A DNA stretch of 25,696 bases, taken from IMG/VR virus record IMGVR_UViG_3300013131_000223, positions 1 to 25,696 of that record; one strand, written 5' to 3'. The DNA is from a virus. Made by a program: the position numbers and the translations under genes. Shown piece by piece: positions 1-25,696 of the stretch. Numbering within the stretch: the first letter of the stretch is position 1; every line of letters starts with the position of its first letter. The notes below the pieces were generated by a model, which was not told where the DNA came from, ran no database searches, and worked only from the letters and a program-made list of their open reading frames with translations.

Positions 1-2
1 AC

Positions 3-359
3 AACTCGGCTACGAATCTCTTTGAGGTGGCAGTCGGCACAGATCAAGTGGCTGGCGGAGTCATTAAATTCTCGGTCAATGTCGTGGACACTACCAACCA
101 TAAAGTGCAAACCTATGTCGGCACAGTAAAATACGAAACGCACAACGAAAACGGAACGATCGGTGGAACGATCACCGAAGAAGCAAACCCGGTGACGTAT
201 CTTTCGGGTGGCACGCTCGCTACTACCTGGGCAATCACGGCCGGCTCTGGCAAGGTGACTATTTCTCTAAACGCCAATTCATCCTTGGCGGCCATTGCGA
301 CTGAGAAACTCGAATACTCGATTGAAAATTATTCAAGAAATGCGGTAACGCAACTTTAG
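3..359 (+). CDS. C-terminal part of a structural (probably tail) protein, cut by the window edge
   Basis: The reading frame is open from base 3, so the GTG at 27 is probably internal and the true start lies left of the window. The visible 118 residues are rich in Thr, Asn, Gly, Val and Ala with alternating hydrophobic positions, as in beta-rich phage fibres, and there is no catalytic motif. The gene is followed by a 175-base gap and then the recombinase/lysis block. In phages of this layout, that places it at the end of the tail gene group, which would continue from the tail protein cut at the right edge. The tail assignment is an inference from composition and position; no specific family is recognised. 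Confidence 0.6.
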   Translation, partial: NSATNLFEVAVGTDQVAGGVIKFSVNVVDTTNHKVQTYVGTVKYETHNENGTIGGTITEEANPVTYLSGGTLATTWAITAGSGKVTISLNANSSLAAIATEKLEYSIENYSRNAVTQL

Positions 360-429: not shown

Positions 430-525
430 TTAATGCAGTTTGTCCCGACGGGGACTGTAATTAGGGAGTTCGGGACTAGACGCCCGAGCTCCCTTCTGCG
501 TTAATAATAAATATTTCTCGTCTAG
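430..525 (+). ncRNA. Candidate structured leader RNA of the first recombinase gene (three-way junction plus pseudoknot)
   Basis: Bases 430-438 pair with 496-504 (9 bp, one G-U). Inside are two hairpins: 442-446/451-455 (GTCCC/GGGAC, loop GACG) and 464-474/483-493 (11 bp, one G-U, 8-nt loop). That 8-nt loop contains CTAGACG (476-482), exactly complementary to CGTCTAG at 519-525. The latter overlaps the AGGA ribosome-binding site (524-527) of the gene starting at 535. Both stem imperfections are G-U pairs, which suits an RNA. The 11-bp arms around an 8-bp centre could instead be a tyrosine-recombinase core site. No known RNA family is recognised. Confidence 0.6.
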
Positions 526-534
526 GAAATAGTT

Positions 535-3063: not shown

Positions 3064-3279
3064 ATGACAAAGAATTCGCCATATCAGGAAACGAGGCATC
3101 ACATCGTCCCACAATCCCGAACCAAAGGAAAAGGAATCGAAGGCGTCTCGAAAGTAGTCCGCTACTTGCATGAACTTTACCACCATTTATTTGGAAACAT
3201 GATGCCGGACGAGATCCTCGAATGGCTGAATCAGACTTTTTGGAATAGCGGATACGAAATCACTATCCGAAAGAAATAA
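3064..3279 (+). CDS. Small HNH-like protein
   Basis: A 71-aa protein from ATG 3064; an upstream TTG at 3022 lies inside a hairpin and is less likely. It contains RHHIVPQSR (residues 11-19) followed by LHELYHHLFGN (35-45), a pattern of paired histidines found in compact HNH-type proteins, where the first HH belongs to the beta hairpin and a later histidine completes the metal site. The C-terminus is a short helix ending ITIRKK. It is much shorter than typical HNH endonucleases and has no zinc cysteines, so enzymatic activity is uncertain. It is bracketed by two GGGCAGG hairpins and ends directly in a terminator, like a self-contained added gene (moron). Confidence 0.6.
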   Translation: MTKNSPYQETRHHIVPQSRTKGKGIEGVSKVVRYLHELYHHLFGNMMPDEILEWLNQTFWNSGYEITIRKK

Positions 3280-3304
3280 GGGCAGGTCTTGTGCTTGCCC
3301 TTTT
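3280..3304 (+). terminator. Rho-independent terminator
   Basis: GGGCAGG (3280-3286) pairs with CTTGCCC (3294-3300) over 7 bp including one G-U, with loop TCTTGTG, followed by TTTT and an A/T-rich tail. It begins one base after the stop codon of the HNH-like gene and would end the lysis-cassette transcript before the second recombinase promoter. Confidence 0.8.
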
Positions 3305-3317
3305 ATATTTTCTATGG

Positions 3318-3326
3318 TGTGGATAA
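3318..3326 (-). promoter_or_regulatory. DnaA-box sequence
   Basis: TGTGGATAA on the + strand, which is a perfect TTATCCACA on the - strand. It lies six bases upstream of a TTGACA hexamer. The match to the bacterial DnaA box is seen directly; binding is inferred. Confidence 0.5.
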
Positions 3327-3332
3327 CTCATA

Positions 3333-3361
3333 TTGACATCTAAAATATAAAATTGTAATAC
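3333..3361 (+). promoter_or_regulatory. Probable sigma70-type promoter for the second recombinase
   Basis: TTGACA (3333-3338), a 17-base spacer, then TAATAC (3356-3361, 3 of 6 consensus). A perfect TATAAT (3386-3391) downstream has no good -35. Transcription from here would give a leader of about 210 bases before the ATG at 3582. Confidence 0.5.
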
Positions 3362-3499
3362 AAAACTGTAAGGTCGCTTATAAAATATAATATTGACCCA
3401 TTGTCCCCTAAAGGGATCAGCCGAAAGGCTTGATGCTAGCAATGGTTTGGAATGGTAATATTTTACTTTCTTTCTTGCCAAGAGTAAAATATAATTATC
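3341..3499 (+). repeat. Three copies of an A/T-rich 15-base repeat
   Basis: TAAAATATAAAATTG (3341-3355), TAAAATATAATATTG (3381-3395, 14 of 15 identical) and TAAAATATAATTATC (3485-3499, first 10-11 identical). The last also forms the 3' arm of a 10-bp inverted repeat with ATATTTTACT at 3458-3467. Such iterons next to an integrase gene could be arm-type recombinase sites or repressor sites; which one is unknown. Confidence 0.5.
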
Positions 3500-3574
3500 G
3501 AAGCTTTGCGAAAGCAGAGCGAGCGCTTTCGGAAGATAGCGCGCACAAACCCACTGACTAGCATCGGTGGGTTT
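3398..3574 (+). ncRNA. Candidate structured leader RNA (or attP) of the second recombinase
   Basis: A first block closes with CCATTG (3398-3403) pairing CAATGG (3440-3445). Within it are a TCCC/GGGA hairpin (3404-3416) and a 7-bp hairpin with a GAAA tetraloop and one bulge (3416-3434). A 10-bp hairpin follows (3458-3467/3483-3492), and finally a perfect 8-bp hairpin AAACCCAC/GTGGGTTT (3547-3554/3567-3574) ending seven bases before the ATG. The loop of that last hairpin holds CTAGCATC (3558-3565), exactly complementary to GATGCTAG (3432-3439) in the first block. Long-range pairing would tie the two blocks together. A recombination site is the main alternative reading. Confidence 0.5.
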
Positions 3575-3581
3575 CGTGTTT

Positions 3582-4478
3582 ATGAAAGTCAAAGATTCGT
3601 TTAGCAGTTATCTTTCTTATTGTGCCGCGTTTGGCGGGTTTAAGAATATGGGGAATACCAGCAAGACTCTTTACGAGAAAAAAAGATTTTTGTATGGGGC
3701 AATATTGAAGTCGGTCGGAGAAAAGGATTTCTCTGGTCTTAACGAATATGACATCGTGGCTGTCCGGGAAGCCGGAGTGATCCACGGTATGTACGGCGCT
3801 CAGAGATCGGTGCTCTATTTTCGGCAATTACTTGACTATGCCGAAACAAGACTTGGCCAAAGAGTGCCGTTCAATTATCGTAAAGTAAAAATTCCCTTCG
3901 TCCCGGAAAAGAAAGTGGAATATCTTACGCCGGAAGAATTGGAACGAGTACGTGGTGCGTTTGATATACAGACTATGGCCGGATTACGGACCCGAACCTT
4001 GATTGAATTTATGATGGGAACGGCTTTACGTATTGGAGAAGTATGTTCGATCAATAAAACAAACTTCGACCTAGAAACAGGGAAGTTTTCTTTTATCGAT
4101 AAATACGGCGAGGAACAGGAAATGACTTGTCCTGAAAATTCTACGTGGTGGGTTAAAATGTATTTGGCTAGCCGGCATGACGACTGTCCAGCATTATTTA
4201 TTTCTGGCCGAGCAAGACTTGCCCCCAATAGTTCCAAGGGGTATATTCGAACAAAATTAAAACCGCTTAATATTCCTAAAAAATGTTGCCACCATATTCT
4301 CCGAAAAACTTGCGGTACTAATTTATTGCTCGATACGGACATAAAAAGTGTACAAGAGTTTCTCCGGCATAAGGATCCGAAGACTACAATGAAGCACTAC
4401 ACGGCTATAACTCAATATCAAACCAGAGAAGCTACGGCCCGGAATTATACGAATAAATATGTTGTGGCAATGGCGTAG
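3582..4478 (+). CDS. Tyrosine recombinase, Xer/integrase-like (second copy)
   Basis: A 298-aa recombinase taking the ATG at 3582; the frame also has a GTG at 3567, but that lies in a hairpin stem. An N-terminal core-binding domain spans about residues 1-105. The catalytic domain carries Arg150 (ALRIGEVC), Lys174, His238 and Arg241 (HHILRKT), His263 (LRHKD) and Tyr273 (KHYTAI), so it should be active. It is clearly diverged from the first recombinase, as its active-site neighbourhoods differ, so the two are unlikely to be a recent duplication. It stands alone between a terminator (3304) and a new promoter element that overlaps its stop codon, with a long structured upstream region that may be the phage attachment site. 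Confidence 0.93.
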   Translation: MKVKDSFSSYLSYCAAFGGFKNMGNTSKTLYEKKRFLYGAILKSVGEKDFSGLNEYDIVAVREAGVIHGMYGAQRSVLYFRQLLDYAETRLGQRVPFNYRKVKIPFVPEKKVEYLTPEELERVRGAFDIQTMAGLRTRTLIEFMMGTALRIGEVCSINKTNFDLETGKFSFIDKYGEEQEMTCPENSTWWVKMYLASRHDDCPALFISGRARLAPNSSKGYIRTKLKPLNIPKKCCHHILRKTCGTNLLLDTDIKSVQEFLRHKDPKTTMKHYTAITQYQTREATARNYTNKYVVAMA

Positions 4479-4674: not shown

Positions 4675-4703
4675 TTGCGTGCTTAAAATAGTTGGCATAT
4701 AAT
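4675..4703 (+). promoter_or_regulatory. Promoter of the small RNA
   Basis: TTGCGT (4675-4680, weak -35), a 17-base spacer, then a perfect TATAAT (4698-4703). The predicted start is near 4710. No good reading frame follows; the next element is a rod-like RNA ending in a terminator. Confidence 0.65.
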
Positions 4704-4709
4704 TATTAC

Positions 4710-4846
4710 GACAATGAAATAATCTTCTGTGTGTATTCGAGAAAGACATTTTAACACCACAGTGGAGCAAACGCTAAACGAGCTCCACAGTGGTTAAACG
4801 ATAAAATATCTTTCTTCAAAAGGCACACAGAAATGTGTGCTTTTTT
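4710..4846 (+). ncRNA. Candidate stand-alone small RNA or attenuator, about 137 nt
   Basis: It has its own promoter (4675-4703) and intrinsic terminator (4823-4846) and no convincing ORF. The predicted fold is a long rod: TTCTGTGTG (4725-4733) with CACACAGAA (4824-4832), 9 bp; GAAAGA/TCTTTC and ATTTT/AAAAT (4741-4752 with 4803-4814); CCAC/GTGG and GTGGAGC/GCTCCAC (4757-4768 with 4782-4793) around a single A-A mismatch. It is capped by a 13-base loop, AAACGCTAAACGA. The motif TAAACGA recurs at 4795-4801. The basal 9-bp stem uses the same CACACA as the terminator, so the two folds exclude each other, as in attenuators. A 6S-like or antisense role is also possible. Confidence 0.65.
4823..4846 (+). 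terminator. Rho-independent terminator of the small RNA
   Basis: GCACACA (4823-4829), GAAA tetraloop, TGTGTGC (4834-4840), then six T residues (4841-4846). A textbook intrinsic terminator with a perfect 7-bp stem. Confidence 0.9.
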
Positions 4847-4887
4847 CATTGTCTGGTCGAACATTAAAAACCAGATAAAAAAGTTCT

Positions 4888-23182: not shown

Positions 23183-24622
23183 ATGGCTTTAATTTTTAAT
23201 GGACAATTTCAAGGATTAGCAGACAGCAAATGGAGTGGGGTTCCGGGTAGTTTTTATGCGTCTGTGGGAATTGACGGGCACTCTATTCCAGGAGCAATTA
23301 CTGTACACCAAAAACTTGCCAAAGAATCGGGTGCAACTGTAACCGAACTTTGTAAAGTGAAAGTGGCTTGCTCAAATGGATATTCTTTTTGGTTTTCTTC
23401 CGAATCTGGGAAAATCTGGGCACGCAGTTCGGCTGGTTCCTGGAGTTTAGCTCTGACTACTACGGCCGCGGCTGGGGAAGTGAAATGTCTTGGGGCTAAA
23501 GAGTACGAAGGTTATATTTACTGGGCAACACAAAGTAGACTTCATAGAATTGCAGTAGCCAACGCAGATGATGCCTGGAGTGGGCAGGAATTAAATTGGG
23601 CAACTTTCTCAGTGACGAATCAATACTATCACCCAATGGAAATTCAAGATGCTCGGCTTTTTATTGGAGACGGAAACGTGGTGGCATCAGTAGACCCAGA
23701 CTATACCAGCGGAACACCAACTACTTTTAATAATAATGCTCTAGACATCTCAAGCCCGCTCGTGATCAAGACTATGATCAAATATCAAATTGATCTCTTG
23801 ATTGGCACAGTGGTTGGAACTACAGCAACCGTGAATAATACCGAACTAATCCGCTGGGATTGCACTTCGCCTTCTTGGAATACTTCCGATCCAATAGAAG
23901 AAGCGGGAATAAACGCTTTTATTCGAGACGATAACTATGTATATGTGAACGCCGGGCGTGCCGGAAATATTTACTACTACAACGGCGAACAACTGGAACC
24001 GTTCAAAAGAATTCCCGGAGCTTATTCTAATTCAGTCTATGGATACGTTCACCCAGATGCGGTGGCTAACTACAAAGGTATCCCGGTATTTGGCTTTTCC
24101 AATGGATCAGGGAATCCGGCCCCTGAGGGAGTCTATAGTTTCGGCTCCTATTCACGAGACTATCAGAAAGTACTGGACTTGAGTTGGGTAATTTCGGCCG
24201 GAGTCACTTCGGGAGTGGAAATAGGAGCTGTTTTGGTATCCGATTTTACTTTATTGGTTTCCTGGAAGACAGCCACGGCAGTAGGCATAGATGCCATTGA
24301 TTATTCCAATAAATATGCAAGCGCATATTTTGAAACTAGAATGCTTTTTCAAGATCAAAGAGATATTCAAAAAACCTTGCGCGAAATAGCCGCCTATTAT
24401 AATTCAATGCCGGCAAACTGCGGTTTTACTTTTTCTTACAGTGTCAATGGCGCTGCCTATGTGGCGATTGTAGCTGGGGAAACTTTCAACGATACGGATT
24501 CTGCCAGAGTATATGTCCAACCGGGCGTTTCTGAGGTGGGGTCTTTGATGATTAAAGTCGCGTTTACTGTTTCGGGCAATACTGCTCCGGTGCTAGAAGC
24601 GCTGGGAGCGGATGCTAATTGA
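23183..24622 (+). CDS. Large beta-rich tail protein (tail-tube or nozzle-like)
   Basis: From ATG 23183, 479 aa; the frame also has a TTG at 23177. Many WD-like or blade-like strand motifs occur: GYSFWFSSESGKIWARSS, YEGYIYWATQSRLHRIAV, DARLFIGDGNVVASVDP, NYVYVNAGRAGNIYYYNGE and GIPVFGFSNGSGNPAPEGVY. This suggests a beta-propeller body, as in T7-type gp12 nozzle proteins of podoviruses, followed by an Ig-like C-terminus (FTFSYSVNGAAYVAIVAGET). It would form the tail tube below the adaptor. The fold is inferred from repeated patterns, not from a family match. Confidence 0.55.
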   Translation: MALIFNGQFQGLADSKWSGVPGSFYASVGIDGHSIPGAITVHQKLAKESGATVTELCKVKVACSNGYSFWFSSESGKIWARSSAGSWSLALTTTAAAGEVKCLGAKEYEGYIYWATQSRLHRIAVANADDAWSGQELNWATFSVTNQYYHPMEIQDARLFIGDGNVVASVDPDYTSGTPTTFNNNALDISSPLVIKTMIKYQIDLLIGTVVGTTATVNNTELIRWDCTSPSWNTSDPIEEAGINAFIRDDNYVYVNAGRAGNIYYYNGEQLEPFKRIPGAYSNSVYGYVHPDAVANYKGIPVFGFSNGSGNPAPEGVYSFGSYSRDYQKVLDLSWVISAGVTSGVEIGAVLVSDFTLLVSWKTATAVGIDAIDYSNKYASAYFETRMLFQDQRDIQKTLREIAAYYNSMPANCGFTFSYSVNGAAYVAIVAGETFNDTDSARVYVQPGVSEVGSLMIKVAFTVSGNTAPVLEALGADAN

Positions 24623-24642
24623 TTAATAATTAATTTAAAAAT

Positions 24643-24846
24643 ATGGAATACATCATAGGAATTTTAATAGGACTCGGGGCTTTGGCAGTGTGGCAGATTT
24701 TTGGCTTTTTTATTCGCAAGGGATACAAAATGGGAGTCAAAAGCGGAACGAATCAAGTGGTGAAATATATTTTTGAGCAGATTCAAGAAAAAGGACAAAT
24801 TGATTTAATTTTGGATGGGCAAAAAATAACGGTAACCACAAAATAA
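24643..24846 (+). CDS. 67-aa membrane protein
   Basis: It begins MEYIIGILIGLGALAVWQIF, a single N-terminal transmembrane helix, then IRKGYKMGVKSGTNQVVKYI and a short amphipathic tail ending ITVTTK. It could be an accessory tail or entry protein, or a small lysis-related membrane protein. It is encoded eight bases before the large tail protein. No family recognised. Confidence 0.55.
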   Translation: MEYIIGILIGLGALAVWQIFGFFIRKGYKMGVKSGTNQVVKYIFEQIQEKGQIDLILDGQKITVTTK

Positions 24847-24854
24847 AAAGAAAA

Positions 24855-25696
24855 ATGGCAGACCTTAATCCACAACCTTTACCGACTCCGACCACTAGAA
24901 CTACCTTTCAACAACTAAGGCAGTCTTTTCAGAATTTGACTGTAAAAATAACTAAAGAAGCCCTAAACTCTTCAAATTATCTTCCGAATACGCGAGGTTG
25001 GAAAATAGACGCAAATGGTGATGTGGAATTTTTTAACGGAGTATTTCGAGGTGCGCTCTCGGCCGCTACGATCGACATCGGCGGAGCGGATACTTCTTCT
25101 TTTCACGTCGATATAAACGGCAATCTCTGGGCCGGAGCGGCGACTTTCGATATAAATACGAATCCATTTGCCGTGTCGAACGCGGGAGTTCTGCGAGCCG
25201 TTTCCGGCTCGATAGGTGGCTGGGGAATTTCTGATACCGCTTTGTCGACAGGTGCTTTCGATACTTTGAATAAAATGTATTTTGGGACAAGCGGTATTTC
25301 GCTTTCAAATACCTTTAAGGTTACTTCTACTGGCGCCTTGACTGCCACTTCTGGGCAGATTGGCGGATTTACCCTTAGTTCTACTTCACTTTACGGCGGG
25401 ATAATCAAAACAGCCCAAACGGTCGGGGTTGGAAATAATGGAGTGATCATGGATACTGCCGGGCTACGCGGGTATGACAGTGTGCTTGGCTTGGTTTTCA
25501 ATATTCCTACAGACGGATCGGCTCCAACTTTTTCCTCAGGGATAATCAACAGTACTATTTTTGAAATAAACACCAATGCAATTATGAGAACTTCGGCGAC
25601 TGTCGGAGATGGCTCAGCTGATTCGGCTGGTATTTTAATAAACAACACCGGTCTATATGCCTGCGAAGCGAACCAGTCCCTGGCCAATGCTAATGT
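24855..25696 (+). CDS. N-terminal part of a repetitive tail/host-recognition protein, cut by the right edge
   Basis: The open frame runs from ATG 24855 to the end of the window (280 codons). The first 35 residues are Pro/Thr-rich, then GWKIDANGDVEFFNGVFRG (about 55-73), a motif widely seen in phage tail-tip and fibre proteins, followed by repeated units such as FAVSNAGVLRAVSGSIGGWG and FKVTSTGALTATSGQIGGFT, about 55 residues apart. These probably make a trimeric beta shaft. It most likely begins the receptor-binding apparatus whose end appears at the left edge as a different gene or fragment. Confidence 0.65.
   Translation, partial: MADLNPQPLPTPTTRTTFQQLRQSFQNLTVKITKEALNSSNYLPNTRGWKIDANGDVEFFNGVFRGALSAATIDIGGADTSSFHVDINGNLWAGAATFDINTNPFAVSNAGVLRAVSGSIGGWGISDTALSTGAFDTLNKMYFGTSGISLSNTFKVTSTGALTATSGQIGGFTLSSTSLYGGIIKTAQTVGVGNNGVIMDTAGLRGYDSVLGLVFNIPTDGSAPTFSSGIINSTIFEINTNAIMRTSATVGDGSADSAGILINNTGLYACEANQSLANAN

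Follow-up and report, generated by a model that had tools for sequence, protein, structure and literature searches.

Structure of the recombinase leader

The 25,696 nucleotides (nt) of the IMG/VR virus record IMGVR_UViG_3300013131_000223 (positions 1 to 25,696, hereafter the window) contain a gene for a tyrosine recombinase that is directly preceded by a strongly folding sequence at positions 430-534. This raises the question of whether the sequence acts as an RNA in the recombinase transcript, as a recombination site in the DNA, or as both. A comparison with related phages points to a cis-acting 5′ leader in which two hairpin loops form a kissing contact, and this leader seems likely to regulate the translation of the recombinase. 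The promoter, the leader elements and the two recombinase genes of the window described here lie on the plus strand.

The recombinase (535-1356, 273 amino acids) was assigned to the Xer-like enzymes by Pfam PF00589 (E 2e-29) and by the XerA, XerC and XerD models, and its best solved relative is XerA (5hxy). Positions 360-534 are the sole non-coding tract separating the upstream gene from the recombinase, and attP would be expected there.

The minimum free energy of 430-534 computed with RNAfold is -44.2 kcal/mol (z-score -5.2), a value equalled by none of 200 shuffled sequences. The predicted fold is a three-way junction (430-504) closed by the 9 base pair (bp) helix P1 (430-438/496-504), which includes one G-U pair. 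Inside it lie hairpin A (442-455, arms 442-446/451-455), a 5 bp stem of the form GUCCC-GACG-GGGAC, the joining strand UGUAAUU (456-462) with a GUAAU-like motif that is conserved in the homologue alignments, and hairpin B (463-494, arms 463-474/483-494), whose apical loop ACTAGACG (as RNA ACUAGACG) occupies 475-482. The fold thus reproduces the closing stem, the two inner hairpins and the 8-nt loop complementary to 519-525 of a preliminary description of this locus, hairpin B now comprising 12 bp. The two imperfections named there are G-U pairs as stated, one in P1 and one in hairpin B.

The minimum-free-energy fold contains in addition the short, AT-rich hairpin C (512-531) just ahead of the ATG, which had gone unnoticed in that description. 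Its arms UAUUUC/GAAAUA (TATTTC/GAAATA in the DNA, 512-517/526-531) enclose a loop at 518-525. CGTCTAG in loop C (519-525), which overlaps the AGGA at 524-527, reads as the exact reverse complement of CTAGACG in loop B (476-482). In any one sequence, 7 nt of complementarity linking a leader to its start region are unremarkable (p ~0.3). For this reason, the case for the pairing rests entirely on the comparison across phages, and the significance of the match arises from its loop-to-loop recurrence in eight of them.

A sigma70-type promoter (TTGAAA-17-TAAAAT) was predicted at 399-427, placing the expected start of transcription at ~433-435, inside P1.

Conservation and covariation in eight phages

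Related recombinases were collected by searches of IMG/VR. The leader is common to the window and seven phage contigs (L001, L003, L012, L013, L055, L056 and L057), whose recombinases are 51-63% identical to that encoded at 535-1356. These eight members were aligned structurally by hand. The order of elements in the 5′ to 3′ direction is a -10 box, P1, hairpin A, a GTAAT-like joining strand, hairpin B, hairpin C and the ATG. In seven of the eight members, 6-9 nt separate the end of the -10 box from the P1 core, and the transcript is therefore expected to begin at the foot of the fold. This agrees with the earlier proposal that the leader belongs to the recombinase mRNA. The exception, L013, has an insertion between the -10 box and the P1 core. 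In the same contig, at ~3275-3345, a 12-nt 5′ strand GTGCTCAATTAC is complementary to GTAATTGAGCAC, which covers the joining strand and the 5′ arm of hairpin B. An alternative fold breaking hairpin B and competing through this strand is possible there.

The 3-bp core of P1 varies with compensation (CAG/CTG, AGG/CCT, CGG/CCG, TGG/CCA and GCG/CGT). The loop of hairpin A reads GACG in five members, GTCG (GUCG) in two and TAAC (UAAC) in one. Hairpin B ranges from 10 to 14 bp, and its apical loop pairs over 6-7 nt. Its stem comprises 90 Watson-Crick cells, 7 G-U cells, one mismatch and no A-C cell in the eight members; this separate count was preferred, as the hairpin B row of L001 is out of register in the table of loop pairs. 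Loop C follows hairpin B at a distance of 31-36 nt in seven members and 65 nt in L056. In the homologues it lies about 4-13 nt before the ATG, with the 3′ arm of hairpin C reaching or entering the start codon. In the arms of hairpin C, 51 of 56 cells across the eight phages are Watson-Crick pairs, compared with 21.5 +/- 3.4 after shuffling and 16-27 in slid controls.

Loops B and C are perfectly complementary in all eight members despite differing letters. The loop B/loop C pairs are CTAGAC/GTCTAG in the window and ATATAC/GTATAT, ACACAC/GTGTGT, CCAGAC/GTCTGG, CTATAC/GTATAG, GTACGAA/TTCGTAC, CTACGAA/TTCGTAG and GCGCAAT/ATTGCGC in the other members. All 48 loop-loop cells are canonical, with two-sided changes at five of the six pairs, whereas the best of 1000 shuffles reached 36 of 48. 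Matches of a loop with its own tail extend over 6-7 nt against a mean of 3.4 for swapped pairs, and the observed sum was reached by one of 40,320 permutations, the true pairing alone. When 1.7 Mb of strand were scanned mechanically for the combination of hairpins B and C with complementary loops, all eight leaders were recovered. The scan also returned ~15 other scattered matches, about the rate in shuffled sequence (4 in 0.56 Mb), none of which share a constant geometry.

This letter-changing pairing in eight phages identifies, on comparative grounds, a real RNA structure. The compensatory changes that had been named as its test are present in the closing stem, in hairpin B, in hairpin C and in the loop-loop pairing. 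Chance palindromes with chance complementarity would account for the insignificant 7-nt match of a single sequence, but eight of eight homologues pairing with different letters, together with the permutation, shuffle and slid controls, refute this for the structure and make it a negligible explanation.

A second leader built on the same rule

The window encodes a second Xer-like tyrosine recombinase (3582-4478, 298 amino acids counted from the ATG at 3582; Pfam PF00589, E 2e-20, and NCBIfam). It is preceded by another three-way junction (3398-3445) closed by CCATTG/CAATGG, a layout that recurs in the phages G004, G005 and G006. Within this leader, the strand GATGCTAG (3432-3439) is complementary to the loop of an 11-6-11 hairpin, AAACCCACTGA-CTAGCA-TCGGTGGGTTT (3547-3574), which ends 7 nt before the ATG. 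In G004 an AGGCTAA strand faces the palindrome AAGCCCTCCGA-TTAGCC-TCGGAGGGTTT, and the closing stem is CCACTG/CAGTGG. G006 combines the strand GATGAGAG with the centre CTCTCA and the closing stem CGTTG/CAACG, and G005 combines GACTGCTAC with GTAGCA and CCGCCG/CGGCGG. The recombinase of G004 is 79% identical to the second recombinase of the window and those of the others 22-29%.

A mechanical scan of all fetched loci for this type of leader recovered three of the four cases and one AT-rich match; G006 was missed because its hairpin carries a bulge. A BLASTN search of the second leader and the overlapping stretch of G006 against GenBank phages gave nothing usable.

By these comparisons, two unrelated leaders in these phages follow one rule: a palindrome sits directly ahead of the start codon, and a strand of the leader is the complement of its centre. 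An extension of the rule to all related recombinases was rejected, as no convincing case could be found in most of the loci L014-L032 and L060-L069, nor in eight Xer-like recombinases of GenBank phage records. Among the more distant relatives, L069 (638-685) contains CATATACAACT, which is complementary to AGTTGTATATG, a segment that includes the recombinase start codon. It appears to carry a different, putatively start-sequestering leader.

Proposed mode of action

In the proposed mode of action, transcription in vivo would begin at the foot of P1. The RNA would fold into the junction of P1, hairpin A and hairpin B, and hairpin C would follow ~35 nt later, its 3′ arm extending as far as the start codon or into it. 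A kiss between loops B and C, each 6-7 nt long, would then fix the start region in a structure that blocks normal loading of the 30S subunit, so that recombinase output would depend on this contact. The usual role of the kiss is probably to keep the recombinase low, and the conserved GACG/GUAAU part may be read by a protein or a ligand. Phages carrying this leader would control their recombinase output through two loops of one RNA that kiss at the start codon.

Translational control of the recombinase, as suggested in the preliminary description, is thus plausible from the sequences. The loop had been thought to seize the ribosome-binding site. Pairing does occur at that place, but the partner is the apical loop of hairpin C and not the Shine-Dalgarno (SD) sequence as such, which most homologues lack.

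Several points weigh against a translational leader. With a recognisable SD sequence missing from most homologues, the target to be hidden is less clear. The conserved half-site letters in the palindrome formed by hairpin C would not be needed by a pure RNA hairpin. Recombinases below ~50% identity are found without the leader, and that of L063 (53%) is preceded by a different one. Finally, loop pairing could activate instead of repress, by analogy with IncI-alpha plasmids, in which pairing in the repZ pseudoknot reportedly activates translation (work attributed to Asano and Mizobuchi in 1998).

Alternative explanations

The palindromes of hairpins B and C could instead be recombinase sites in the DNA, or folded single-stranded DNA like integron attC, with the RNA being incidental. 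The interval that separates the recombinase from the last gene upstream of it, the usual place of attP, does contain palindromes of Xer size, and the half-sites of palindrome C are conserved (TAATTT adjoining the centre, p 0.0015 or below). The arms of hairpin B, on the other hand, show no sequence conservation (p ~0.1), and the promoter sits exactly at the foot of the fold. In a drifting DNA palindrome, A-C would be expected about as often as G-T on one strand; hairpin B, with 7 G-U and no A-C, fits an RNA on this strand. A purely DNA-level site is therefore regarded as unlikely, and the earlier suggestion of a second role for hairpin B as a recombinase core site is probably wrong. If any core site is present, palindrome C is the better candidate and may also be readable as DNA, for example as an Xer-type core. 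Should it prove to be an attachment site, the correspondence of its overlap with the RNA loop would call for a new explanation, which might be the participation of RNA in tyrosine recombination.

With such a participation, palindrome C would be an attP core with its centre as the overlap, as would the 11-6-11 palindrome that precedes the second recombinase, and the complement in the leader RNA would help, like a bridge RNA, to choose or synapse the matching DNA. Two unrelated RNA scaffolds each contain a segment complementary to the middle of a palindrome with Xer geometry beside a recombinase start, the centres differ between phages while the RNA strand tracks them, and the half-sites of palindrome C are conserved. 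In the second leader, moreover, the palindrome arms have kept their similarity although the recombinases share only 22-29% identity. Against this, the pairing is already satisfied within the RNA, the one-base bulge in the G006 palindrome would be awkward for a symmetric DNA site, and neither a host attB nor an integrated copy was found in genome scans. Of two scans of GTDB genomes for related recombinases, aimed at such copies, the first returned nothing and the second a single remote relative (L008, 25% identity). A search of the open-access literature yielded no paper on RNA-guided tyrosine recombinases. On balance, RNA-assisted recombination is considered quite improbable.

Little credence is likewise given to a transcription attenuator, in which transcription would terminate at hairpin B or at the palindrome of the second leader and the kissing strand would modulate this termination. 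The hairpin of the second leader has a high G+C content, and T-rich sequence comes after it, most markedly in G006. Hairpin B, however, is followed by TTCTG or TTTCC (TTCTGCG in the window) and thus lacks the U run which, after a G+C-rich hairpin, makes an intrinsic terminator; a terminator scan made no call at 463-494.

It is very improbable that the leader RNAs guide tyrosine recombinases by means of a 6-9 nt loop or strand that matches the att overlap and helps to choose or pair sites. If true, this would constitute an RNA-guided tyrosine recombination system.

Comparison with known systems

The kissing-loop leader has its nearest counterparts in plasmids. The repZ/repA pseudoknot leaders of IncI-alpha, IncB and IncL/M plasmids reportedly have an apical loop, of which ~6 bases pair with a segment adjoining the ribosome-binding site of a single gene and thereby switch its translation. 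All eight phage members have an apical loop whose complement lies in the ribosome-binding region of the gene. The systems differ in that repZ is driven by a leader peptide and an antisense RNA, neither of which was found for the phage leader, though no systematic search for a short leader open reading frame or an antisense promoter was made. Furthermore, the partner in the phages is a hairpin loop, the gene encodes a recombinase and the sequences are unrelated.

In phage lambda, the sib element lies 3′ of int and acts via RNase III in int retroregulation. It resembles the leader as proposed here in being an RNA structure beside an attachment site that controls integrase expression, but the present leader lies 5′ of its gene and overlaps the start codon.

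The dif sites of Xer recombinases share with palindrome C a palindromic core with a centre of ~6 bp, and the enzyme here is XerA-like. The inner 6-8 bp of palindrome C are inverted and the TAATTT half-sites conserved, while the outer positions are not clearly conserved; it is a candidate core. We know of no counterpart at dif of the complement in a transcribed loop.

The bridge RNA of IS110-family elements is likewise a structured RNA with its own promoter beside a recombinase gene; its loop bases match recombination DNA, and its two guide loops for target and donor have been demonstrated experimentally (PMC11208160). The recombinase there is of the IS110 (DEDD/transposase 20) type, whereas a PF00589 tyrosine recombinase is encoded here, and in the leader one loop alone, over 6-7 nt, is complementary to the middle of palindrome C and pairs with it inside the RNA. 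The STAXI motif (RF01728) is a pseudoknotted RNA candidate near XerDC-type integrases, consisting of two or three tandem pseudoknots with UUCG loops (PMC2864571); the phage leader is present in a single copy, has a GACG loop and does not match Rfam.

In Rfam 15, no family matched the window at the gathering cut-off, and positions 300-700 gave no match up to E 5, in line with the earlier statement that the leader belongs to no recognised class. No report of the kissing-loop leader was found in the open-access literature. The element is an uncatalogued structured RNA, present in none of the RNA catalogues searched, that accompanies recombinase genes of uncultured phages. Scanning for the exact pattern of the hairpin A motif returned two already known contigs only, and matches of the model R1 in G010 (13863) and G013 were other hairpins. 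Repeats of hairpin B, as expected of an invertible switch, were found neither elsewhere in the window nor in the phage genomes.

Genomic surroundings

The upstream gene of the recombinase resembles a tail-fibre or structural gene in several phages (window 1-359; G004, reverse complement of 23514-24902; L003 1-255), and several contigs end within ~450 nt upstream of the recombinase. In L005 (1-91) the contig starts 80 nt before the recombinase (53% identity) and contains a TTTATCT/AGATAAA complementarity but lacks a long hairpin B. Either an integrated copy (attL/attR) or simple truncation of the contig could account for this.

Directly 3′ of the first recombinase, positions 1372-2739 of the window encode a putative endolysin with the peptidoglycan-binding domain PF01471 and a weak PHROGs match to a peptidase family. 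Downstream of the second recombinase, the intergenic stretch 4720-4850 is strongly folded (z-score -6.5 for 4680-4860) and ends in a terminator-like hairpin with a T run. It is possibly a separate non-coding RNA, and a similar stretch containing CCACAGTGGAGC is located 3′ of the second recombinase of G004.
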